A stretch of DNA of 64,000 nt from Undaria pinnatifida (lineage: Eukaryota > Sar > Phaeophyceae > Laminariales > Alariaceae), in NCBI GenBank assembly GCA_012845835.1, contig JABAKD010000019.1, forward strand, positions 5,999,494-6,063,493, in the 5' to 3' direction. Below are positions 5,549-64,000 of the stretch, piece after piece. Within the stretch, counting starts at the first letter, position 1. Each line of letters begins with the position of its first letter. A program made the position numbers and the translations under genes. The notes under the pieces were generated by a model, which saw only the letters and a program-made list of their open reading frames with translations, did no database searches and had not been told where the DNA came from.

Positions 5549-8500
5549 ATGGGACGTCGCCCGGTGGGCTCAAGGAAAAAGGGGGGGGGGGCTTTGTCTG
5601 GAGGTGAGGATGAGGTACAAAGCGGGGTGAAAGCTGAGCCGGTGACAGCCCCGGCAGGCCATGACCATGCTGACAGCGCAGCCGCAGCTTCGAACGGAAA
5701 ACACGAGGAAGTCGGTAGCAACAGCGGCATCACCACCAGCAGTGCTACTGCTGGCGATAGTCGTGTGGAAGCCGAGGAGAAGAACCCACTGATGGGTCTC
5801 CTCCACTACGAAGATTCAGATTCGGACGACCAGGATGACGACGAGAGTGCCTCGTCGCCTCTTGTAATCGAAAAGCCGGCGGTGGAGGCTGGAGCCGGAG
5901 CAACAGCGGAAGGAGACGAAGCACCAGCGGCAGTATCAGGAGCAACAACCACAACAACCACAGCGGCTGGAGAAGCAGCAGCTACAGCTACAGCAAAACC
6001 TGCAGCAGCGAGCATGGAGGCGGGCACTTCGTTCTCCAAAGATGACGCCCACAAAGACCTTGTCCGCTCAAGCGCTGGAGGATGGCCACGGACCTCGGTA
6101 ACCCCAACCGCCGACGATAGCACGGCCTCAGCCGCCGACGAAAGCACGGCCTCAGCCGCCGCCGTCGCCGCCTCCGCCGATCCTGCCGAGGCCTCTCTGC
6201 CCGCCGGCTGGCAGCAGTGCATGGACAAGGAAGCGGGCGTGGTCTACTTCTGGAATACGGCGACCGGCGAAGTTACATGGGATCGGCCGGGCTCTGTCTC
6301 TTCGAGCAGGCAACCCCGAGCTTCTGCGAAAGCGGCGACAGCGGTGGTACCAGCGGAAGCGGCGGCTGGCGAGGTTGCAGTCGATTCTGCTTCCGCTGGT
6401 GCTACTGCTGGTGCTGCTGATACTGGTGCTACAGCTGCTGCTGACGCTGATGCTGATACAGGTAATGTATCGGCGCCGGTCGAGGAAGAAATCGCAACCG
6501 GCGTAGCAGCAGTAGCGACCGCTGCTGAAGAGCGGCAGGCAGCGAGCGATGCCACGAGCGACACCGCCAGCGAGCCCGATGATCACGACGACGACGACGA
6601 CGATGCCGACGTCAAACAGCATGAGGAGGGGGAGTTGATGGAGGACAGGGCGATGGCGGCGGCCTCGGATAGCTCTATCGCGGCAGTTTCAACTCGGAGT
6701 GCGATGAACGTCGATGCCGACGCTGACGCGGACGCAGGCACCTGCGGCCTTACCGCCGAATACAGCGGCGAGGACGACGAGGCGCAGGACGTAGCAGCCG
6801 GCATGGAGGGTTCCGTGGAGACTAAACCTCACGACCTCCAAAATACCGACGATAGCCTTTCCCGAAAAAGTGCGAAAGCTTCAAAGAATTTGGAGAACCC
6901 GGAAAATTCGGAGCACCCAGAGAAATCGGGGAAGCCAGAAGGGTCGGGGATGACGCAAGAGGAAGACGGGAGGCGGGGGGAAGAACGCGCCGGAAGCGTC
7001 ACCGCTTCCCCCCTCCCGGGCCCTGAGGCGGAAGGCATAGATGATCTGCTAGCGGGCATCGAAGCGGAGCTGCTGTCTTTGGCCGGTGCCGGTGATGGTA
7101 GCGGCGGCGTAGATGGCGGCGCAGCCGAGGCGGACACAACAGTGGCGGAGGCAACGCCGGCGGCGACGGAGTCGGCCTCGGTGGCGGCCACTGCTAAGGC
7201 GTTCCCGAAAGAAGACTTTCTCCTCCTGCGGCTGGCGGCTTCGGGACTCGATGTTCGCGCACAGAAGGCGCACGCGGAGCTCGTCGATCGGCTTTCGGCG
7301 GCGATGGTGATGGCTGAGGTGAAAGGGCGAGGAGGATCAGGAGGAGGGGAAGGCGGGGAGGGAGAGGAGCTTGGTCGGCACGGTGGTGTAGCTACGATGA
7401 AGTGTGCCTGGGAGCTAGGGGCGGTCTTACGCTCCCGGTTGTCGGATTGGAAAGAGGGTGAGGATGCGATAATCGCGGGGGAAGCGGGGGAAGGAGGTTG
7501 ACTAGCTCTTTCCGTGTATTTTGCTTTTCTGTTGTTGTCGGCTGTATTGTCAGTAGTAACGATTGCACTTGTTTTCACCAGAGTGTGAACGTTGCGTCTC
7601 GTCGACAGTTGATACCAATGACAAGGATTGTACCTGTTTTTACCTGAGTTTGTGAACGTTACGTGTGGTCAACTTTTGGTATCTTGTGTATGTGTTTCCA
7701 AGATGATAGTGATGTACATACTGCAATTTGTGCGCCAATATTCTCGCCCAAATGCTGCTGCAATGGCCCCTCTGCTGTCGCATTCCTCAGCGGTACGACG
7801 CGCTTACTACCAACCCGTCGCCTCCCGTGATCAAGCTTGACTTGGTCGCCACCTTCCCCTCATTTCCGCTTTGCTCATCAAAGCACTCGCCAGCTTCCAA
7901 ACCCATTTACTAGTGTAGTTCACAGGGCGCAAAACAAATTACAAACCCCTTGCGAGCTGGCTGAAGCCGACTCTACGACTGAGTCTGCCCGCCGACCGAG
8001 ATTCATAATGCGATTTTCCAAACCTCCAAAGCAACAAACGCGCACAATTGACGAAAATTACACATGTCCTGCTGCGCGACTTCCCAGCGACATCTATCAT
8101 ATGTTTTTTTCTCGTGCTAATCGCCCACGTACTAAAGTCGTCTTTGTTGGTGGCCCGTCGTGTACACCATGTAGGCGGCCTCGACGGCGCTTTCCTAGTG
8201 CTCAAGCTGGAGCAAATGGTGGCGCAAGCCCGGTCTTCCCTGCCCCCGCCGCAAACCGGGGTGGTCACCACCCTTTCGTCTACCCAAGCGACAGACTGTG
8301 AACTATCGCAAGCTTTGTCCGCCGCAGCCGACGCTCCCGCTGCGGACGACGGCGAGGAGAACGCCGCCGCTTCGATGAACGGTGACTTGTCTGTGGTAGC
8401 GGCGGCCACGAGGGCCAAGTCCGCCTCTGGTGGGTCTAAAACTAAGCATAGTCCTCGAGGAGGTGTTATTAAAAGTGGCAGTGCATCCACCGCTTCGGAA

Positions 8501-11500
8501 ACGCCGAAAACAGGAGCTCAACACCCAGATAACGTTAGCGGCGGTGTTAGCAATGGCAGCGAAAGAGACGAGGAGGTTGGCGTTACCGCAGAAGACGGTA
8601 TCGGCGAGGCTGCTCCTCCGGCGGGTGCGGCGAGCGCTGAAGCGCTGCGGGCGGAGCAAACAGCTCAGAAGCTGAAGTGGGCGGACGAGGTCTCTGCCGC
8701 GGCGTCTGCCGCCGTGGCGGCCGCCGCCGCGCTCTCAAAATCGAGGAAGGACCAGACCAAGGATCGGACTAAGGGCCAGTTCAAAGATCAGTCGGAGGCG
8801 GAGGCCGGGGCGAAGGCGAAGTCTAAGAGTGCCAGAGTGTCCGAGTCGCGCCGATTAAGTGGCAAGGGTTGTCGGCGGCAAAAAGTAACACTATCACATG
8901 CGGTGGCGGCGGTAGATGGAGAGGACGAAGAGGAACAGGAGAAGGAGGAGGAAGAGATGGAGGAGGGAGAGATGGAGGAGGGAGAGATGGGGGAGGAGAA
9001 GTTGAAGGAGGAGGCGGAGCAGGAGGAGGAAGATGAGGAAGAAGGGATACTTCTTGGAACAGGAAGGGTCGGCGATGTCCCTTCGAAATCCGCGGCCAGT
9101 GGCTCAACTGGGGGGGCCGCGGGAGGCGTGATCGACTTAGGGGGCGTCGGAGACGAGGATAGCGGCGATGAAAAAGAAAATGCTGATAATGTTTCGGACA
9201 TGCCGGCTCCGGAGGGGAAGGCCGCGATGGCGGAAGGGTCGGACGGCAGCGAACAGGGCATAGTGATTGCGCAGGAGGAACCTGTGCCCACGTCTGGCAT
9301 CGTGATCGCGCAGGACGATACTCTACCCAGGTTAGTTTTTTTATTTTAGTAAGTATATCATCTGCCGCCGATTTATTGTGAATTGAACGAATGTTTATTT
9401 CCGGATCGCCCGCAAAAAAGCACGACCAGATCTTGGCTTTTGTTTCGGGACGGTGGTGTGCCAATTTTTTTGGGAGGGCGGAGAAAATCGAGTAAACCTT
9501 GATCATGTAACCAGGAGTGAAGTTACACGGGGCCTTGTCTATATGGGGCTCTCGCTCCCTTGGCGCGTATAGGAAGGGTAGAGCAATAGTAGTGAACGCG
9601 CTCGCTAGGTCCCTTTCCCTCTCAGAACGGCGTTGCCTCGGTGGTGCTACAGCAGTAGAAGCATTCAGTGTTCAGGGTAACCAATTGGTACTTGCGGCAA
9701 TACCTTCAAACGCGCGGGTGTTTGACGTCGAACTGCGCCTTGAAGCATTTTTTTCTCCGACTCATTTTTTTCCCCCGTAATGACCCCCCCCCCCCCCCCC
9801 CCAACTTGCACGTACACTTGCGACCGCGGATTAGATTACGGCGATGAGTTGCTGTGAGAACAACGCCAATACACATACACTCACACCTTCCGCAAACCTT
9901 TGCTTCTCTTTCACCCCGCCTCTTCTTAGCGGCTGGGAGGCGGTATGGGACAAAACCCACAGCGCTTTTTACTACGTTAACCTCAACACGAACGAGACTA
10001 CGTGGGTCCTTCCGGACCCCCCACCGACCCCCGCCGACACCAAACCAACGAGGCCGTCAGTTTCGGATAGCGCCGACCCCACCGCGGGAACCGTTCCGGG
10101 AACCGGTCCGAAGGCGGCCGATCAAGACGCCGCTATCGCTGGTGGAGACGGAGAAAAATCGCGCAAACGGTCGCGTCGGCGGGACCCGTCGGGGGAACGC
10201 GACGCCAAATCGGAAAGGGCGTCATCCTCCACCGATGGAAACTGGGCTAGAGATAAGAAGGCGACGCCGGAGGCGGGAGGGGACACAGAAGGAGACGCTC
10301 CTGCTGCTGCGACTTCCGAAAAGAGAACGGCGGCGAGGGAAGATGCAGGGGCGGCAGCTGCTACGCCCCGGAGAACATCGACAAGGGAGAAGAAGCCCCT
10401 CCCGAGGTAGGAGCGATTCGTTGTTTTTTTCGGGCACGAAACTCGAGGGTCGCTGGCCGGGCTGCTGGGCGTTGCCGCCTCGCGCGTTCCACGCATTGCT
10501 TGCGGGTGTTGGGCTTCCAGTTGCTATTGCGGTCTTTACGCATGCTTTTGCTACGCTTGCTTGGCTCGTTTTGTATACTTGGCTCGTTTTGTACATCTAC
10601 CGGTCGGCACTTTCAGAACACGTGTCTTCCGCGCATAATGCTGTTGCTCGATCGCTTGGTGATATACCTTTTGTCTAGTTACCGTTGTATATTTTGGTAT
10701 GTTTTGGTGGCTCGATCGCTAGGAGGTACTTCAGTATACCCTTTTCCCTCTTTATGTTGCTCGAGCTCTTGGCGGTATACCTTTTGTTGTTTTTTGTTCG
10801 TTTGCTGTCGATGTTTCGCATGGTACACCCCCTCCCTTGATATCGTGACCGTTCTTCAAGTGGGTTGGTGCCAGGACCAGGGTGCCAGGAGCAGAAAAAA
10901 AAACAGCGCAGACAGAAATGCGTGCAGGCAGGCATGTATGCACGCAGGCAATGGACCGGACCTTTTATGGAGATGGAAAAGGCTGTCAAGATGTATAAAA
11001 GACGCAAGATAAGAAGCGCGGGGAGCCGCCGGTTGAAATATCGTCGACCATATCAGTGCCGCCGCGCCGAGCTTGCCACACCGGGCGTGCCGCCAAGCGC
11101 ACCCTGCCAAACGACCTCTCGCCAACGGATTTCCGCTCAGATGCAACCCACCAGCTCAAGCTCAAACCGTTGCCTCGGTACTGTGGGTATGGACATATCC
11201 CCGCTTTTAGCCATTCGGACAGATTCCCTGCCGCCTCTTGCTTTGTTTTGGAACGGCGGGTCTGGCTGGCGTTGCGTGAGCTATACACGGCAGCGGAGTG
11301 TGTCACGACAGTTTTAATGAAAGATCAACTCGATTTGATATTTTGGTTTTGTACTGTATTGTATTTTTGCCATTGGAACGGCCGGAGGGCATGGACGTGG
11401 ATGGGGACCTCCCTGTCCTTGTGCGGCGTTTTTTCGACCGGCCGACGTTTTCCTCGTCTAATGGAAGGCGGAGGGAGCCGGAGCGGACCGTCCCCCGTGA

Positions 11501-13143
11501 AATTTCCTGACCCGTACCCTCCTGTCACCCCACTCAGCCCCCACTTCCAGAAGAGAGTGCGCTTGCGCAGGAGCACCTTCACCGTTCCCTGGACCGAGCG
11601 TAGGTGAGTGGACGCTAATAATTTACCTCCTTAAGTCGGCCGTGAGCGCCTAGCGCCACGGCCGGGATGGACAAACACCAAGCGCCGCGATCGCTGACTT
11701 TGCTCTGCCCCCCCCCCCCCCCCCCCCCCCCGCCCTGCACCGCCCCGCCCGCCCCTCCTCTCTCTGTCTGTTTTGCTCGGCCTCTTGCCTCGCCCAACGT
11801 CGTCGTGTTTCCCCGTGGTCGGTCCGGGAACTGCCGGTGCACCACTGTCCTCGGCTTTTCCGGCCCCTCTCAGCCCGTGGGTTGCCATTTTCGATGACAA
11901 TATGCAGGCCAACTACTACCACAATACAGAGACCAACGCTACTACTTGGGAGCGCCCGCCAACTCCTGCCGTCGCGGCTGATACCGTCGCCGTGCCCGCG
12001 GCTATCTCCGACACGCCGCGGAAGCGCCAGCCAAAAATTTCCGCGTCTAAGAAAGACAAAAGAGTCTCCCCGACGCGGGCGGATCTCGCCGACGGCGTCC
12101 CGATTATTTCGGCGGAGGGTAGTGTTGCCCCTTCCCCTGCCGCCTCTAACAAGAACGTCTCCACCCCTAAAGGGAAAGCCCCCACCTCTAAACGGCGAAG
12201 CGCTTCTCCGCCGGCAGGTTCGGTGGGGGTAGGTGCCGCCGCCGCCGCCGCCACAACCGCCGCCCCCGCCAAGGGGGATGCGGAGGCCCCGGCCCCTGTT
12301 CCCGAAGCATCTGGTTCGGCGGAAGACTTGCGCCCATCGACGCTGGTGTGGTGGTCAGACGCAGGCGACGTTTGGAACGGGGCGGCATTGTCGGGTCTTC
12401 TGGCGGGGTATGGGCCTCGCCGGTATCGAAACCTCGGCGGCGGCTACTACATGATGACGATGGAGCTGGGCCCGGAGTGGGTGGCGACCGCGGCGGCCGC
12501 GCTGGGACAGGGAGTCGCTGACCCCGTAGCGGCAGCGCGGGTGGATTGGGTGTGCTGCACCGCGTCCGCGCCCGGGTACGGCCTGTTTCTGAGATTTGCC
12601 GGCGAAGACGACGAGCAGAAGCTGTTTGATGTGCCGGGTGAATTATTCGATGATCCCCCGCCGGACCCGGCTATCACGGCGGCGGCGAAAGCTGCCGCCG
12701 CCGCTGAGGCGGCCGCTGCTGCCGCTCGGGACGCGGCCATAGCGGAAGCGGAGGCAGCGGTGGAGAACGCGGAAGCAGAAGCGGAGGCAGCAGCGGCGGT
12801 GGCGGCCACGGAAGAAGCTGAGGCTGCGGGCAGCGAGGCCGCGGCGGCAGCAGCGGCAGCGGCGGCAGCGGCGGAAACTAAAGCCTCCGCCCCAGCGTCC
12901 GCGCCGAAGAAGCGGAAGGGAAGCAAGCGGTCGGGATCCGGATCGTCTGCAGGGTCGATAGGAAAAAAGCGCAAGGGCGCGGCGAGCTTGATCGACAAGT
13001 GGAAAGCTGTGGCGTCCACGGCTGGGGAGGAGACGGAGAAGGAGAAGGAGAAACAGGAGAAGATGGACCGGTGGAAAGCGCGCGCGGCTGTCCTGGACCC
13101 GGACAACCCTAACTTTACCCCCCTTGGCCGCAAGAGAAGATGA
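5549..13143 (+). CDS. Triple-WW-domain protein, FNBP4-like (4 exons)
   Basis: Exons 5549-7457, 8175-9330, 9930-10406 and 11874-13143 (introns 717, 599 and 1467 bp) join in frame with GT-AG ends to give 1603 residues. Three WW domains are seen: residues about 217-247 (LPAGW...VTWDRP), 1020-1051 (LPSGW...TTWVLP) and 1179-1210 (SPWV...TTWERP). Each keeps the two Trp positions and the aromatic YF/YY/YY pair. The linkers are Ala/Glu/Ser-rich and acidic, probably disordered. The segment after intron 1 (GLDGAFLVLKLEQ) continues the DWKEG of exon 1, as in plant and animal FNBP4-type proteins. The C-terminus carries SLIDKWKA (about residue 1552) and NFTPLGRKRR, matching the conserved end of that family, which binds proline-rich, splicing-associated or formin partners. 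KKRK stretches suggest nuclear localisation. The start is the first ATG after an in-frame TAG at 5480. The WW calls are seen directly; partner and function are inferred. Confidence 0.85.
7557..7682 (+). repeat. 66-bp tandem duplication in WW-gene intron 1
   Basis: Two diverged copies, about 7557-7616 and 7622-7682, share 'gattgcacttgttttcacc'/'gattgtacctgtttttacc' followed by 'gtgaacgtt'. They lie about 100 bp downstream of the exon 1 donor. Confidence 0.5.
9784..9802 (+). repeat. Poly-C run in WW-gene intron 2
   Basis: An uninterrupted run of 19 C, 127 bp upstream of the exon 3 acceptor. Comparable runs precede several other acceptors in this window. Confidence 0.8.
10625..10800 (+). repeat. 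Degenerate tandem repeat in WW-gene intron 3
   Basis: Three diverged units begin near 10646, 10710 and 10759, each running 'gctcgatcgcttggtgatatacc'-like to 'ccttttg' over about 50-65 bp. The repeat lies inside intron 3 and does not touch the splice sites. Confidence 0.5.
11708..11731 (+). repeat. Poly-C run in WW-gene intron 3
   Basis: About 24 consecutive C, followed by a C-rich tract, 142 bp upstream of the exon 4 acceptor at 11872-11873. Confidence 0.8.
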
Positions 13144-20346: not shown

Positions 20347-22680
20347 TTACGAATTTGGGCGTAGGCCTGCTGGAGAAATGGAGTGGCCTAGAAAGTTCGC
20401 ATCGGTAGCGCCCAAACGCGCCTTCGAGGGGGAAAGCTTGAGATTGTGCTTTCGAAGGCGTTCGAAGAGAGAGCGAATCGTCCGAACATGCGTTACCGGG
20501 TCGGAGTCGAACACGATGACATCGTCGAGGTAAGCTGCCACCTGTGTCAAACCCTTGATCACCTCATTGATAACCTTGACGAACCACCCAGGCGAGGCGC
20601 TGCTGCCCTGGGGCATAACGAGCCACTTATAAAGGCCCGTGGGTGTGCAGAACGCTGTAAGGGGAACTGTGTCCTTGTGTGCCGTTATCTGGTGGAACGA
20701 GGAAACCAAGTCGAACAGGGAAAACACCCGACCTGAGCCCAAGGAGTCCAGGACCTGGTCCACGCGCGGAATCGGCAGTTTACTGAGCTTGCTAATTTGG
20801 TTGAGCTTCTTGTAGTTCACCGTGATCCTCACACCGCCAGATTTCTTCGGGATGACCACCAGCGGGCTCGAGTACGGTGAGGTCGAGTGCTGAATCAGCC
20901 CAGCCGCGAGGTACTGGTTAAGGGTCGCGTCCACTTCTCTGGCCAGTATAGGGTTTATGCGATGGGGCCGTGAAGTGACCGGAGCGCTGCCCTCCGGAAC
21001 CGAGATTTCAAAGGGTATTAGGGAGCATGACCCAAAATCCGTCTTCGAGGTGGAGAACACGTCAGAAAAGTCGCAGAGCACATCCCCCAGTTGCTCAATG
21101 GTCGGGGGGTCCCAACCAGGGTCGTGTAAGTCGAACGCAATCTCCCGCAGGTGCGGTGGGAGTCGGGCCCAGACGCGTAGAAATGCAGAACGTTGGACCG
21201 GGTTCAAACGTTCCATAAGCGTCGGCGAGGGCGACGGTACGGCGGGAACTATCTCCTCCGCGCCGGTCGGGCTCGCGACCGCAGAGACCTGGCTGTCCGA
21301 AGTCTGGCCAGGGTGGGGACCCGCAGCCTCGATAGGGTGTTGCAAGGCACCCAGCGGGATGCGCAAAAGTGGGGCGTCGGCGACCCCGATAAGGTCGCCT
21401 GGCTCGAGGTCCGCGACACCTATGACGGGAAGCACCTGTCGTCCTGAAGCAACAAAGTGTTTCTGTCCCGAAAGAACATCCGGCTGCGGCAGTATGTCGA
21501 CCAGATAGTGTCCTGTGAGCGCAGGAGAGCCGTTACTGCGCACCAAGTTGACCTCGAGCAGTTGGGGCTCGTCCGACAAAGTGACGCCTGTAGAGCCATC
21601 ATAGCGAAGGTGGAAAGCACCGTTCGATGCTGCGGGGTCGACGGCATAAGCCGCTACGCCTGCTGTGGCGTGGTGGGACAACGTCAGCTCGCCCAAAAAC
21701 CGATTATCGAGAGGACGAGGGGGCAGGGCGCGGTACGAACGGGTGTTGAAGCGCATCCAACTGTCGCGGCCCAGCAAGACAGCGTGCTGCATGACCGAAG
21801 GAGGGACCACGCATGCCCACACCGCGAGAGAGCATGTTGGTTCTTTTTTGAGGAAGAATTGAACGCTCAGACGGATGTGGGTCGCGGTCCGTAAAGGGGC
21901 GGATTCGCCAAAGCCACCCCAGGAGCGAGGGCTGCTAGGCCGCTCGCACGTCGATGAGGCGGCGCCTACCGATAGCATACGATCCAACACGTCACGACGG
22001 ATAAAGGTTTGGGGGGAGCCAGTGTCAAGCAGCGCTGTACATATGTAGGGCGCAATAGCGTCCCCTCCGCTATGTATTGCAATATCGGTAGTGAAAGAAT
22101 CGTCGTCCAGCGTCACGGTACCCCCAACGAGGCAGGGGCCATGTTCTGGCAGTGCGCGGTCTGAGGCGCCGCGAGAAGCTACCGCCAAAACCTCCGGGCT
22201 TTGATCGGCGGGTGTACCCGAAAAATAGGCCGAAGGAGGGCCTTGGGCAGCGCCGACCGCGGTCCCCAAGCGCGACTGCTGAGCGGACGAAATTTCATGG
22301 ATTCCAGCATTCCCGGTGGGCCTGCGGAATCGACGAGGGGAGGCCGGGTGTGGCGATCCGTCCTCGCAGTCGCGAATTGCTTCGCGAACGGCAGAGAGTG
22401 CCTCACCGAGCAAAATTTTTCCTCTCCACTTGTGTGGATCCTTGGCGTGGGGGTCGTCCGCCCGGAGACCAATACCCCACACAGTGTCTAGAGGACTGGC
22501 CTCTGCCAGAAATTTGTTGCCAGTGCTCAAAAGGTGATTTTTCATGGCTGGGTTCTGCGTAAATTTGGCATAGTTGCCAGATAACACGGCATTTTGCTTC
22601 TCCCTGTCCCAAACGGCGGCGTCAAAATTGCGCACACCTCGACCGACGCGTTTGTGTGTGCTGGGGTCAGACGATGAGTG
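20347..22680 (-). pseudogene. NADAR (partial) - aspartic protease - reverse transcriptase ORF
   Basis: The frame is open from 22680, after a TGA at 22681-22683, to a TAA at 20347-20349. Positions 22668-22369 encode the C-terminal half of a NADAR domain: KRVGRG, FDAAVWD, NYAKFTQNP, LLSTGN, AEASPLDTVWGIG, LLGEALSAVRE. The family's conserved Glu, Asp and Trp of the 'EASPxDxxWGIG' motif are present. The N-terminal half (the SNF/EHY-type segment) is absent. A retropepsin-like LLDTGSPQTFI follows, then an RT with the catalytic YLDDVIVF motif and a connection start (LGHSIS). NADAR proteins act on N-glycosidic ADP-ribose or riboflavin-intermediate bonds; whether this half-domain is active is unknown and unlikely without its N-terminus. 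The annotated ATG is absent (the first candidate codon is GTG at 22635), consistent with a truncated frame. Confidence 0.82.
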
Positions 22681-23249
22681 TCAGCGTGTTGGGTGACTTT
22701 TCACTGTGCTCCCCCCCCTACACTACACCTAGGGTAAATGCTGCCCGTTTTGGTGCGACGAGTGTCAGCGTATTGGGTGACCTTTCACTGTGCCCCCCCC
22801 CCTACACTACACCTAGGGTAAATGCTGCCCGTTTTGGTGCGATGAGTGTCAGCGTGTTGGGCGATCTTACACTGTGCTTCCACCCCTACACTACACCTAG
22901 GTTAAATGCTGCCTGTTTTGGTGCGACGAGTGTCAGCGTGTTGGGTGATCTTTCACTGTGCTCCCCCCCCTACACTACACCTAGGTTAAATGCTGCCCGT
23001 TTTGGTGCGATGAGTGTCAGCGTGTTGGGCGATTTTACACTGTGCTTCCACCCCTACACTACACCTAGGTTAAATGCTGCCTGTTTTGGTGCGACGAGTG
23101 TCAGCGTGTTGGGTGACCTTTCACTGTGCTCCCCCCCCTACACTACACCTAGGTTAAATGCTGCCCGTTTTGGTGCGATGAGTGTCAGCGTGTTGGGCGA
23201 TCTTACACTGTGCTTCCACCCCTACACTACACCTAGGTTAAATGCTACG
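22673..23249 (+). repeat. 84-bp minisatellite, 7 copies, dimeric higher-order pattern
   Basis: Units start at 22673, 22757, 22841, 22925, 23009, 23093 and 23177, exactly 84 bp apart, each beginning GA(T/C)GAGTGTCAGCGT. From the second copy onward two variants alternate: a 'gacgag...cccccccc' type and a 'gatgag...cttccaccc' type, a 168-bp higher-order unit. Because 84 is divisible by 3, a long frame (22656-23399) stays open with a repeated 28-residue peptide. It is an artefact of the array and is not called as a gene. The array abuts the truncated NADAR frame on the left and a TRIM LTR fragment on the right. Confidence 0.9.
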
Positions 23250-60100: not shown

Positions 60101-63100
60101 TCTTCGCAATGGCTCATAGAAGACGCGTGCAAAATTTCACGGTCTGAATCGAAAAAACGCCGAGCAATAAATTTGTTTTTTTCAATGCGAACCAGCCTGT
60201 AGCGTCGTTACCCACCCCTCTTGATTCGCGCCTGGTGCAAGCAATGCCTTCCTGGTCGGTGAGAACCCGCAGACCGAGCTCTGGAGTGGTAGTTTTTATA
60301 CTATCTTTGGATTTTTTTCCTTTGTTTGTGCTATTCGCCAGAATTAGAACTGTAGCCACAATCCACTCCGTGTTTTTATGAGTTTTGTTTCTCTGTGGCC
60401 ACAGCAGCAATGGTCGGTACCACAGGCCGTATCAGTATACCACCGGCGATGGACCTTCCCGTCCATCTCTCAAGAGGTACTAGAAACGGCGTGCTCCGTT
60501 CCGGTATGGTAGGGATGTGAGGGTCTATGATCGTGCGCACTACGGCCGTGCATGATACGATGACTTTTCCCTTGATGATTAAAACGGGAAGGGGATAAGA
60601 TGAGCGAAACGTTTTTAGGTAACATATGGAAAAAAACGTATGGAGCGCCTCCATGGTGGAGGTGTCTCCGTCAGGAGTAAAAACAGTGCTCCGTCTCGAA
60701 AGGGATGCGTGGTCAATGGTCAGATGACTTTAAGGGAATAAAAAACGAGTACCCCACCCCCAAGTTTGTTCGAAGCTGCCATCCGATATGCAAGAAGATA
60801 CGCGCAAGGTGCGAATGTCCGCCTGCCTCTCAAACATATTCTTAGTAGGATGCAGGTCACCCTTGATGCGACTCGCGGAACACCTCACGGCGCTTCGCGC
60901 TTGGTGCAAGCAATGCCTGCCTCCTGGTTGGTGAAAACCCGACGTGCCCCGTCCCGACATTGTAGCGATGCGAGGGTATATACCCTATGGTCATACCACT
61001 ACGGCTATGCATGAAATGAGTACCCCCCCCCCCCCCCTCCCCCCCCCCCGCCTCTGCCCCCCCCTCGACGATCCGATGGCGCAGGCTTCGGGTATGGGAG
61101 CAGCGGGCGCGGCTAGAGAAACAGCGAGGGAGATAGTGGCCCGTACCGTAAGAGAGAAGGGGGTGAGGGGGCTATACTGCGGGTACTGGGCGACGCTGTC
61201 GAGGAATGTTCCGAGCGCCATTATCCGGTTCTCCTTGTACGAGGAGATCAAGCTGTGAGTGACAAGATTGATAGATTGATAGTTGAAGTGGTGAGCTAAA
61301 GCTTTATTTTTCCCCATCCGCCGGAGGATTAAAAAGAAGAAAAAAAAAAGATAGGTTGATAAATAGGCAGATATATACCCGTTCTGCTGCTGCATTTGTT
61401 TGTAGATTGATTGCGATTGTTTCGTTGTGATGTCGTTGTGATGCAGCTGAGAACGATGTCGTTGTGATGCAGCTGAGAACGATGTCGTTGTGATGATGGT
61501 GTAACCATCGCCCGGTTCTCTCTGCGAGATTTGGCCGAGGGTGTAGAATGTATGATGTATTGATAGATGGATAGCCGTTCTCGTATTCCCCTGTTGCTGC
61601 TGCATTTTAATTTTAGTGCGAATGGTAGCGTTGCGATAGAGTGATTGATATATGCGGTTCGCCTTTTGCGTTGATTGTAGTTGCGATGATGTATTTGCGA
61701 TGAATGCAGTTGTGATGTGGTGGTGCATGTGCGAATCATTGTCGGTGTGATGTTGTTACCATCATCCGGCTCTCCTTGTACTGGGAGAGTAACTGTGATT
61801 GTGGAATGTGCAGTAGATTGATTGACACGAGCTGTTCTGCTGCTCTGCGTTTACATTTTCATTGCGTGGCTGTCGTTAGGATAGAGTGATCGATAGATGC
61901 CGTTCGGCTTCCGCGTTTTACAGGTCCGTTTCGATGTTGTCGTTGCGAAGAATGTCGTTGTGAAGCGAGTGTAGTCGCCCACCTTGTGCATACGAGGAGA
62001 TCAAACAGTGCATATGTGTGATTGGTACAACGCCCGCTCTTCTGCTGTAGTTTGTACTTTTTCATTGTGATAAATGCCCTGGTAATCTCGTTGGCGTAAT
62101 GCCGTCGTAATTTTGTTTGTGATGATGCAGTTGTAATTTTAATATGACGATGGCGTCGTAATGTCATGGCGACGACGCTGTTGTAATTTCTTTGTGACGA
62201 TCCCGCTGTGATGATGCGGTTGTAGATCCGTTGAAGTCCGAATCTGATTATAGTGCCGTTGTGATTCCGTTGTGGTGTCCTTGTGATGCCACTGCAGTTG
62301 CGTCGTGAATATGTTGCCATTCCGTTGTTGTGTTACCGTTGTAATTTTATGTCGTTATAACCCACCTAGGATTTCACGGTGATAACGTCCTTGAAAACAC
62401 ATTTTTGGTTTACCCTTGTTACAAACGCCAGGTACCAAAGGCGGTTCGGTTCTAGTTCGGGTGTACTTCCGCTTTGAGTTCCGCTCTAGTTGCGTTCTGA
62501 TGCCGTTCTATTTCCATGTTGATTCGGTTGTTTATCCAGAATAGTAATCCCGTTGTAACTCCATTGCAATAACGTTGTATTTCCGCAGGATTTCAAACGA
62601 TAGTGATCACGACGACAACGATAATCGTGACCATGACGTTGACGATCATGCCGGTGACGATGATCATGATCATGACAATGATGATGAATGACGTCATTTA
62701 CCCATCCGTGTATCGTCTACAGTACGGTGCCCAGCTTAAGAGCGTCCGCAATCACAGACAACGCCTTCACAACTGGAAACCCGTTTTGGGGGACAAAATT
62801 ACTTGAAGATAGTATTGGGAGAGTTTTTGGTGGCCATACGCGCGATCAAATTGGCTTGTCGCGTCTTGTGAAACCTATGCCAATACCTGCATGAGGCCCC
62901 ACTTGAGATCAGAGCGGTGCGGAGGTAAGAGCTGTGCTACTTGCCTGTCCTTGGCAAAGATCGGTTGCCGGTCTAATTTTGTCCCGTCAAGGCCTCGTTA
63001 GACGTAATATGCCGGTTAGTATGAAGCGGTCCTTGACGCTTGTCCGCCAATAGTCAAGGGTGCCGTCAACCGGTATCTTCGGTTCCTGGGGGCGCTTAAT

Positions 63101-64000
63101 CCCTTTAAAGCCCCCAAATTTATCCCTATACTAAATCCAAGTAAGTTTGTCCCCAAAAAAAGGTTTCCAGTTGCAAAGGCGTTAAGCCGGGTACCCCACT
63201 GTACTTTTCTTCTCAGGTTTATGGGTCCGTTGCGGCTCGCGTCCGCCCCCCCAGCCTACCTCCTTGCGGGAGCATTGGCAGGCGCCTGCGCCAGCGGCCT
63301 GACCACGCCCTTCGACGTGCTAAAGACAAGGGTAAGTCGTGCTTTAAGACAAGGGTAAGACGTGTTTAAGATCAGGGTAAGACGTGTTTAAAATCAGGGT
63401 AAGACGTGTTTAAGATCAGGGTAAGACGTGTTTAAGATCAGGGTAAGACGTGTTTAAGACCGGGTAAGACGTGTTTAAGACCAGGGTAAGGCGTGGTCAT
63501 GACAAGGGTAAAACCTGTTTTACCCTTTCACTACAAGAAAAGAATCCCCTACCAATTCCAGGTATATGGTCCCCAAAAATGTGGACGCAGGTTGAAAGGG
63601 GATAAGACAAGGGTAAGGCGTGCTTAAGACAGGGGTTAATCGTGCTTAGGACTTCGGGTAAAACTGTGTTTAGGGCACGAGTAAGACGTGCTTACGACAA
63701 GGGCAAGGGGTGCTTGAAACAACGGTGAATGTGAGACAAGGGCAATTCGTGCGTAAGACAACCTGTAAGACTGTGTTAAGGACAAGGGTAACCCGTGTTT
63801 GATGTATTAAACCGTGCTTAACCTTTTTAGAGCCATAAACCCCTCCCTATACCAATCCCAGACCCCCCCCCCAAAAAACACGGGTTTCCGGTTGTGAATG
63901 GAGTAAGGCAAGGGTAAGTCGTGCATAAAGACAAGGGTAAGGGTGGCCTGCTTTACAGACCGCGAGCGAGGAAGTCGACGGGGAGTCAGGGCGGGGTTTA
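49346..64000 (+). CDS. Mitochondrial carrier, S-adenosylmethionine-carrier type (partial at 3' end)
   Basis: Exons 49346-49807 (tentative), 53132-53213, 53836-53929, 54526-54934, 61085-61254, 63217-63331 and 63959 to beyond 64000 join in frame with GT-AG ends (458 residues so far). Three carrier repeats are visible: repeat 1 with FPIDTAKT and VYTGIPTAVLGAMPSSALYF; repeat 2 with the variant signature VPKEYVKQ and GLYCGYWATLSRNVPSAIIRF; repeat 3 with LAGALAGACASGLTTPFDVLKTR. These pattern best with SLC25A26/PET8-type carriers, which exchange S-adenosylmethionine for S-adenosylhomocysteine across the mitochondrial inner membrane or plastid envelope. The 154-residue N-terminal exon is Arg/Ser-rich with a hydrophobic ICILLLVALVHLV segment and could be an organelle presequence; it is assigned only from its open frame and its phase-0 donor. 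Exon 4 contains a Gly/Arg-rich insert. The end of repeat 3 lies outside the window. Confidence 0.82.
49808..53131 (+). other. Long first carrier intron (if the first exon is right), otherwise upstream intergenic
   Basis: Holds GGTACCC/GGCCC reiterations (50500-50590, 51390-51530), CAAG/GGCAAG words near 50255-50345 and 52225-52420, an A-tailed element, and 'caatcaatcaacc' low complexity (52930-53090). No further carrier exon was recognised. Confidence 0.4.
51960..52062 (+). mobile_element. A-tailed short retroelement, copy 2
   Basis: Same sequence as 24764-24868 (agttaaatcgacacacgacg ... ccgccggaggat) followed by about 17 A. The upstream 51770-51960 part may belong to it, but no TSD was established. 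Confidence 0.6.
53214..53835 (+). other. Carrier intron 2 (622 bp)
   Basis: Contains a poly-C run at 53240-53250 with repeated 'cctcccccatccaa' units, and a GATC-rich repeat at 53385-53590 related to those at 32870, 38010 and 40690. Confidence 0.6.
53930..54525 (+). other. Carrier intron 3 (596 bp) with extreme C-rich 3' end
   Basis: From about 54220 to the acceptor the + strand is almost pure C with A and T interruptions, including nearly continuous C from 54449 to 54515. The AG at 54524-54525 follows directly. The frame 54130-54955 through this tract is Pro-rich by composition only; coding starts at 54526. Confidence 0.7.
54690..54835 (+). repeat. G-rich low-complexity insert within carrier exon 4
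   Basis: Purine tract (gggagg, gaggag, ggggg) encoding a Gly/Glu/Arg-rich segment between SNASARGIFG and HPVARAGAHAVAAACGN, where carriers normally have a short loop. It stays in frame without stops but could also be a retained or unrecognised intron: 'gag|gtgggg' donors and an 'agagcag|ggg' acceptor exist. Confidence 0.65.
54955..55115 (+). repeat. (GGACT)n and 25-bp tandem repeat in carrier intron 4
   Basis: Five 'actgg' units right after the exon 4 donor are followed by five diverged copies of a unit of about 25 bp ('ggcaacagcagtattgcggaact'-like) from 54990 to 55112. Confidence 0.7.
55116..56190 (+). other. Carrier intron 4, unremarkable part
   Basis: A telomere-like 'ctaaccctaaccca' occurs at 55627-55640. 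The 55270-55500 segment ('tttttggtgtacctaggccatggg') is repeated in diverged form at 58970-59170. No exon recognised. Confidence 0.4.
56195..56390 (+). repeat. 60-bp tandem array of CACTAAAGTGGGACCCCG
   Basis: 'ctaaagtggg' starts at 56201, 56261 and (as ctatagtggg) 56321, exactly 60 bp apart, then shorter units to 56385. The same words are dispersed at 3646, 31483 and 33105. Confidence 0.8.
56540..56860. repeat. GTT/GGT-rich microsatellite with flanking dispersed repeat
   Basis: 'gttgttg' and 'gtggtgg' low complexity at 56572-56715, followed by 'ttggcgccgggtgtgggggctgaac' ... 'gaccggtttcatagcac', which matches 58065-58115. The whole unit (microsatellite plus tail) resembles 57018-57400. Confidence 0.6.
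57018..57400 (+). repeat. (TTG)n / (TTCTTG)n microsatellite
   Basis: About 90 bp of nearly pure (gtt)n from 57018, grading to 'ttcttgttcttg' and 'gctgttgctgttg'. The poly-Leu, poly-Val and poly-Asn frames through it are artefacts. Confidence 0.95.
57640..57735 (+). repeat. 48-bp tandem duplication
   Basis: Two identical copies of 'gaatgatcgcatcacgtagt' ... 'aaggcacccacgag' beginning at 57641 and 57689. Confidence 0.9.
57858..58300 (+). repeat. Dispersed 'cacggcgcttcgcgcttg' repeat, two tandem copies
   Basis: Copies begin near 57885 and 58133 ('tcgccgagcac.tcacggcgc'), each running to 'gagtacacccccgccc'. A third copy at 60849-61020 lies directly in front of carrier exon 5. Partial copies lie at 40120-40175, 56750-56850, 60225-60290 and 60500-60560. 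Confidence 0.8.
58478..58920 (+). mobile_element. tRNA-derived SINE copies in tandem (tail, full, partial head)
   Basis: A tail fragment at 58478-58560 (ending 'gggggagtgttatgtg'), a near full copy at about 58565-58840 with 'atggcgtcgtcgacaga' and B-box-like 'gggttcgaagctc', and a partial head at 58845-58920. It is the same family as 47985-48265, in opposite orientation. Confidence 0.6.
58921..60848 (+). other. Carrier intron 4, 3' part
   Basis: 58970-59170 repeats 55270-55500 in diverged form, and 59280-59470 repeats 24110-24430. No exon or RNA gene recognised. Confidence 0.4.
60849..61068 (+). repeat. Dispersed repeat copy forming the 3' end of carrier intron 4
   Basis: Third copy of the 57858-58300 family. 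It ends in 'gcatgaaatgagta' and a C-run (61023-61067) that supplies the polypyrimidine tract for the acceptor at 61083-61084. Confidence 0.75.
61226..62030 (+). repeat. Tandem degenerate copies of the carrier exon 5 end and donor inside intron 5
   Basis: The true boundary (about 61226-61265: 'ccattatccggttctccttg', 'tacgaggagatcaagct|gtgagt') has relatives at about 61504 ('ccatcgcccggttctctct'), 61758 ('ccatcatccggctctccttg' then 'gagagtaactgtgatt') and 61980 ('cgcccaccttgtgcatacga' then 'ggagatcaaacagtgcat'). Each is followed by 'gattgatag'-like, '.cgttctgctgctgc.ttt' and 'gttgtgatg' words. The unit is about 216-270 bp. The first unit was later interrupted by an A-tailed element. Confidence 0.85.
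61290..61352 (+). mobile_element. A-tailed short retroelement, copy 3 (truncated)
   Basis: 'gtggtgagctaaagcttta' ... 'ccgccggaggat' with an A/G-rich tail, 5'-truncated relative to copies at 24764 and 51960. Flanks share 'gatag(g)ttga', a possible target duplication. Confidence 0.6.
62031..63216 (+). other. Carrier intron 5, 3' part
   Basis: Further degenerate 'gttgtgatg/gttgtaat' words to about 62580, GAT-rich low complexity at 62590-62690, and a segment at 62765-62900 related to 29795-29830. 63121-63190 ('ccctatacta.atccaagta' ... 'ccccaaaaa.aggtttccagtt') recurs in the next intron at 63543 and 63838. Confidence 0.5.
63320..63958 (+). repeat. Intron 6 made of tandem copies of the exon 6 end plus its splice donor
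   Basis: The exon end and donor 'taaagacaagg|gtaagtcg' (63321-63338) is reiterated as 'aagacaagggtaagacgtg' / 'aagatcagggtaagacgtg' units of about 22 bp at roughly 63346, 63368, 63390, 63412, 63434, 63456 and 63477. More degenerate units run from 63605 to 63800, and two more lie at 63905 and 63927 just before the acceptor at 63957-63958. At least ten keep GGTAAG. A 65-bp segment shared with intron 5 separates the blocks at about 63543 and 63838. Confidence 0.9.

Follow-up and report, generated by a model that had tools for sequence, protein, structure and literature searches.

Tandem repeats that extend over exon-intron boundaries, known as mirages, are on record for several genes of amphioxus, namely Adh3, the globin genes BflGb6/BflGb9, troponin C and PGBD5, where, according to the cited accounts, they leave splicing undisturbed (PMC3087553, PMC3902484). 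A second precedent is the minisatellite of the human gene 6-16/IFI6, which is reported to provide multiple splice donors (Turri et al., 1995, cited in PMC4526556). Here we analyze an array of this general kind in a brown alga, the kelp Undaria pinnatifida. The array lies in a stretch of 64,000 nucleotides (nt), hereafter the window (contig JABAKD010000019.1, positions 5,999,494 to 6,063,493; G000:C25:5999494-6063493 in the genome searched, 511 Mb in 68 contigs), where intron 6 of a mitochondrial carrier gene begins with some 20 units that repeat the end of exon 6 together with its splice donor. We consider it likely that this array is a mirage-type minisatellite, probably neutral, and one example of how prone this genome is in general to duplicating short stretches in direct orientation.

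The class is thus already described, notwithstanding the statement in a preliminary description of this DNA that no standard account of it was known (PMC3087553, PMC3902484, PMC4526556). Like the amphioxus mirages, the kelp array bridges a native exon-intron boundary, its first unit joining 18 exon nt to the GTAA of the donor, and many although not all of its copies bear splice signals (18 candidate sites, 11 of them with a U1 duplex energy of -8.9 kcal/mol or lower); the 22-bp unit falls within the range of 10-72 bp given for Adh3 (PMC3087553, PMC3902484). It differs in belonging to a brown alga, in combining ~20 units with many donors, and in being broken by insertions. With the IFI6 minisatellite the array shares units that carry splice donors, but downstream donors of the human gene are reported as used whereas those of the kelp are known from DNA alone (PMC4526556). 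Minisatellite expansion has also been linked to cryptic splice sites and intron elongation in the internal tandem repeats of human segmental duplications; that case, in the passages cited, involves paralogs and new introns and not an array derived from the donor of the host exon (PMC2812944). Intronic minisatellites with a possible effect on splicing or polymorphism are likewise known in Caenorhabditis elegans (CeRep25B) and in fish growth-hormone genes, although no derivation from the end of the host exon is described for them in the passages cited (PMC4039745, PMC3045353). Among the listed results of searches of the open-licence literature, of which a single search paired a brown-algal term with repeat terms, there is no report of a mirage-type repeat in brown algae, which is weak evidence of absence.

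The array and its exonic source

The host gene encodes a mitochondrial carrier of the SLC25 group that resembles S-adenosylmethionine (SAM) carriers: the joined exons match the Pfam family PF00153 in three stretches (E 9.2e-45), and exons 6-8 by themselves do so at E 1.8e-18. Among the best 120 of 182 protein matches, the top four come from Scytosiphon, Ectocarpus, Hapterophycus and Choristocarpus, all of them brown algae, followed lower in the list by Laminaria digitata (90% identical across 35% of the query) and Pylaiella; SAM-transporter names occur among the same matches. The query of this search and of the Pfam run at 9.2e-45 ended with 14 residues of a false exon 7 (TASEEVDGESGRGL), which we reject, given that homolog-like sequence resumes only at 64224 (L009:318), beyond the window, where the protein continues as in the homologs (VATGSLDGGRGFATNM...) and reads on as VATGSLDGGRGFATNMAAIVAEDGWKGLY. 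Because this continuation starts at 64224, intron 6 occupies 63332-64223, that is, 892 nt; the 627-bp intron with an acceptor at 63958 that had been assigned earlier has to be abandoned on the evidence of the homologs and of the sequence past the window.

Within this intron, a 22-bp unit composed of 18 coding nt and GTAA recurs approximately 20 times across 63314-63940, interrupted by two stretches of non-unit sequence (~63523-63602 and ~63822-63903). Together with these insertions, the intronic part of the array (63332-63940, 609 nt) takes up the first two thirds of intron 6 and not almost all of it, as had been believed. Tandem Repeats Finder (TRF) delineates a first stretch at 63314-63520 (9.4 copies, 87% matches) and a second at 63603-63791 (8.6 copies, 64% matches), whereas a 21-nt unit pattern with up to 3 mismatches finds 12 sites in the window, all within 63321-63923, and none in 100 dinucleotide shuffles. 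Delimitation by hand over 63314-63940 yields 22 rows, which correspond to 21 units as one insertion-split unit was counted as two rows, that is, ~20 intronic units and the exon unit; between the native donor and 63958, GGTAAG occurs 10 times. The earlier account therefore holds with respect to a ~22-bp repeat of exon end and donor, its starting point, its approximately 20 copies and the at least ten units that keep GGTAAG, except that the repeated portion of the exon measures 18 coding nt instead of 10 bases.

The units are far from uniform. Six units of the 5' block (63359-63489) are nearly identical (mean pairwise identity 0.945); the units at the edges, 63336 and 63918, are more similar to the exon than these six, and the 3' block, although equally interior, has diverged (0.652). 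The poorest 3' rows, those at 63792, 63729, 63640 and 63663, retain identities to the exon unit of 0.45, 0.50, 0.58 and 0.59, respectively, next to a mean of 0.47 for random 22-mers against a typical unit, which is a slightly different measure. Tandem arrays are error-prone in genome assemblies, so this one could have been produced by collapse or expansion, but we give this explanation next to no credence given the many substitutions that separate units beyond the 5' block and the two insertions that break the array. The exact number of near-identical units is the least certain quantity because three of the six are fully identical.

That the real end of exon 6 and its donor are the source of the array follows from several observations. 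The 22-mer taken from the exon end and donor agrees with the unit consensus in 21 of 22 positions, whereas elsewhere in the window no 22-mer outside the array exceeds 17, so that the exon end can be aligned with the intronic units, as the preliminary description would have it. The resemblance stops upstream: the 22 nt that precede the exon unit are unlike the four units compared (0.40-0.44, with random 22-mers averaging 0.47). Furthermore, of six donors of the host gene that were compared, only that of exon 6 is copied in the next 620 nt (14 copies at a lower cutoff, at most one in any of 40 shuffles, and none for the other five donors). Finally, the motif PFDVLKTR is present in all six brown-algal proteins aligned, with the variants PFDVVKTQ, PLDVVKTQ and PMDVMKTK in three other homologs, which implies that constraint acts on the exon sequence and that it existed before the array; as the exon part of the unit encodes this conserved motif, copying from the exon into the intron is supported.

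Among ten units from 63490 on, a comparison that left out both insertion-split units and the row at 63792, eight are nearer to the exon unit than to the 5'-block unit, the two others being those at 63640 and 63663; the clearest case is the unit at 63918 (0.91 against 0.75). These similarities fit an ancestral array built of exon-like units, in which a variant located near the exon was amplified again at a later time. The following sequence of events can be envisaged. A 22-bp segment, in which the final 18 coding bases of exon 6 are joined to the start of the donor, would have been tandemly duplicated into the intron, and the resulting array would have been re-amplified near the exon, while decaying deeper in the intron and being split by two small insertions; the native donor is most likely used, the remaining units being removed as intron. 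The tandem duplication, as previously asserted, is evident, and replication slippage or unequal exchange, which had been invoked along with it, may well have been the mechanism.

Could the same duplication have given rise to the intron itself? The unit contains AAGG/GTAA (the slash marks the splice position), a proto-splice-like site, and intron gain by tandem duplication of an exon segment bearing AG/GT has been discussed both for mirages (PMC3087553) and for human internal tandem repeats (PMC2812944). We nevertheless find this origin very unlikely, considering that comparison of the unit with the acceptor side (63945-64220) gives scores of 3-6, no higher than background (maximum 11 in 9029 positions), and that no unit-derived acceptor was found, there being no above-background similarity to the unit in 63945-64223, although a fully decayed unit would escape. 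In addition, the Choristocarpus gene model P0004 ends in KTRVRYF, which would fit read-through into an intron located at this very position and suggests that the intron is older.

The insertions raise the question of a mobile origin, under which the array arrived as a repeat or mobile element and merely resembles the exon end. Insertion 2 belongs to a dispersed family and lies inside the array, and insertion 1, a sequence resembling a miniature inverted-repeat transposable element (MITE), is similar to it and is flanked by TTAA-like target sites, both judged by eye; its one weak relative among the loci compared is L053 (E 0.007). All five further genome matches of insertion 2, though, fall inside positions 15-110 of the 126-nt query and accordingly cover little of the unit sequence on either side. 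The array DNA itself matches intron 6 only in the 511-Mb genome (two matches, both there, in a search that skips common words), and its 21/22 identity to a coding exon end is in register with the donor. An arrival of the array from elsewhere thus appears extremely improbable.

Local copying and the wider genome

Exon 6 is not the only exon of the host gene with a copy alongside, as intron 5 carries a decayed, boundary-spanning copy of the end of exon 5 (Table 1). For a broader view, 47 carrier-exon loci were compared with themselves, namely exon 6 and 46 of the 119 Mito_carr matches (16 picked for a match ending near the KTR motif and the rest taken largely from the head of the list; L078 and L080, which duplicate L099 and L100, were left out; 4 of the 49 carrier-exon matches contain stops). 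Exon copies are present in the flanks of seven loci, one of which (L073) is weak, at 22 nt, whereas six (L084, L088, L090, L100, L112 and L117) have direct copies alongside. No copies were detected on the opposite strand (0/47) or in the flanks of other loci (0/376). Exon 6 is among the 47 and not among the seven because its exonic portion falls below the length that the cutoff requires. A laxer run (exon plus 40 nt, E up to 1e-3) gives 13/49, including low-complexity matches and a doubled row. Several of the copies span the likely exon boundary, the exon ends of the compared loci being deduced from DNA and not from homologs: L088 retains CAG/GTGCCG in a copy 109 nt downstream, the copies in L084 and L090 lack GT, and in L100 the splice dinucleotides are gone from the donor copy as well as from the acceptor copies upstream. 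When donor copies are counted for 17 exons, exon 6 stands out with 17; L084, L088, L090 and L095 have 2-6, partly simple repeats, and the other 12 exons have none or no candidate.

These numbers do not support exon ends as duplication hotspots, a possibility that we rejected. Among random windows of 90-250 nt drawn from the 64 kb, 52/300 have a local copy on the same strand and 4/300 an inverted one, a rough rate as the windows share sequence with one another and ordinary tandem arrays were counted. In the carrier loci, windows outside the exon show same-strand copies in 24/137 cases and none on the opposite strand; as the flanks were compared with the exon left unmasked, some of these 24 may be the exon copies again, this time detected from the flank. 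Set against both values, 7/47 implies that exons are copied at about the background rate. A more far-reaching reading, in which brown-algal introns grow visibly by repeated copying of neighbouring exon ends and in which, at sites such as intron 6 whose copies have live donors, variation in their number could alter splicing from one allele to another, draws on two successive introns of the host gene and on the flanks of 6 of the 46 other carrier-exon loci; we hold it to be rather unlikely.

Genome-wide, the unit pattern gives 222 matches against 166 for a reversed control, with the surplus coming partly from the array itself. A comparison with viral contigs found no relative. A candidate excess of donor arrays was discarded: AGGTAAG repeated three times yields 789+677 matches against 65+105 for the reversed pattern, but the matches listed are mostly AGGTA pentanucleotide repeats. 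The pattern AGGTRMGT repeated three times shows no excess (27+32, or 59, against 43+22, or 65, reversed). Neither pattern can match the unit AGGGTAAG, and hence both scans are silent on arrays of exactly its kind. At nine other places inspected (six from the AGGTRMGT scan and three single matches of the unit pattern), no upstream exon was recognised, and Pfam searches with 3 of the 9 upstream translations gave no match. A 25-bp minisatellite with 10.1 copies and the consensus donor CAACAG/GTAAGT is located at G000:C21:1676630-1676880 (L054:1497-1747), again with no recognised upstream exon.

Donor sites and predicted splicing

The array contains 18 listed GTAAG, GTAAA or GTAAC sites; for 11 of them, the native donor among them, the U1 duplex energy lies between -8.9 and -10.3 kcal/mol, in agreement with the earlier remark that many units keep a donor. 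The native donor (-9.5 kcal/mol) is the first in the array and the sole GTAAGT within the 5' block. Splicing at donor 2 (63355) would retain 23 nt and shift the frame, which is stop-free for 384 nt and stays open close to the normal end, whereas 16 later candidates of the 18 share a TAA 8 codons past KTR. Accordingly, the assertion that each added unit shifts the frame and brings a stop fails for donor 2. The predicted RNA fold of the 5' block is not unusual (z 0.04).

Competition between donors is possible on these sequences, and one can go further and propose a regulatory decoy, in which the extra donors bind U1 and divert some of the transcripts to frame-shifted (donor 2) or stop-containing (donors from the third on) mRNAs such that copy number tunes expression. 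The strength of the 11 sites, the open although altered C-terminus that would result from donor 2, the early stop that would follow from 16 of the 18, and the report that downstream repeat units of IFI6 act as donors (PMC4526556) are all compatible with such a role. Against it stand the strong decay of the 3' block, the unremarkable RNA fold, the acquisition of local copies by exons at about the background rate, and the amphioxus mirages, reported to leave splicing undisturbed (PMC3087553, PMC3902484). On balance, we view a decoy function as unlikely.

The interpretation of the array as a probably neutral mirage-type minisatellite has difficulties of its own. The downstream donors (-8.9 to -10.3) bracket the native one, so U1 energy does not favour the first site, and the numerous intact donors could hint at selection, although recent amplification accounts for those of the 5' block. 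Moreover, any view of donor use, instability or age has to be drawn from the DNA of one assembly, and the donor-pattern scans, blind to the array itself, provide no gauge of its rarity.

Feature coordinates and implications

Table 1. Features of the carrier gene and of the array, in window coordinates
Feature	Position	Strand	Remarks
Exon 5 end + donor	61218..61261	+	44 nt, 82%, E 3.4e-6 to 61759-61801
Decayed copy of exon 5 end + donor, in intron 5	61759..61801	+	boundary-spanning match to 61218-61261
Exon 6, mitochondrial carrier gene	63217..63331	+	ends ...TTPFDVLKTR, phase 0; Pfam and nine-homolog alignment
Unit 0: 18 exon nt (GACGTGCTAAAGACAAGG, DVLKTR) + GTAA of native donor	63314..63335	+	TRF start; unit consensus match 21/22
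Intron 6	63332..64000 in window, on to 64223 outside	+	892 nt; donor GTAAGT at 63332; exon 7 at 64224
5' block, 8 units of 21-23 bp	63336..63511	+	7/8 end in GTAAG donor, eighth in GTAAAA
Insertion 1, MITE-like, splits a unit	63523..63602	+	boundaries and TTA/TAA flanks by eye
3' block, probably older, diverged units	63603..63821	+	mean pairwise identity 0.652 in 8 units; some near chance
Insertion 2, dispersed repeat family member, splits a unit	63822..63903	+	boundaries approximate
Final one and a half units	63904..63940	+	63918-63940 is the most exon-like intronic unit, 21/23
False acceptor tgctttacag/ACC	63941..63958	+	not the splice site; true exon 7 at 64224

Elsewhere in the window, a single open frame on the reverse strand (20350-22635) combines a NADAR domain (PF08719, E 1.1e-26, residues 2-88) with a reverse transcriptase (PF00078, residues 595-753) and thus resembles a retroelement polyprotein that carries a NADAR domain; an 84-bp tandem array of 6.8 copies (22672-23246) adjoins it. 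Three neighbouring open frames on the forward strand (5549-7501, 9844-10410 and 11773-13143) contain one WW domain each.

The array in intron 6 extends to a brown alga a class of repeats described from lancelets, with one human parallel. With unusually many near-equal donors lying beside a real one, the locus constitutes a natural test of the choice of the first donor by the spliceosome. More generally, the findings suggest that exon ends of this genome enter introns about as often as any sequence is duplicated locally, a process that offers a straightforward way of producing long introns, decoy splice sites and false exon calls.
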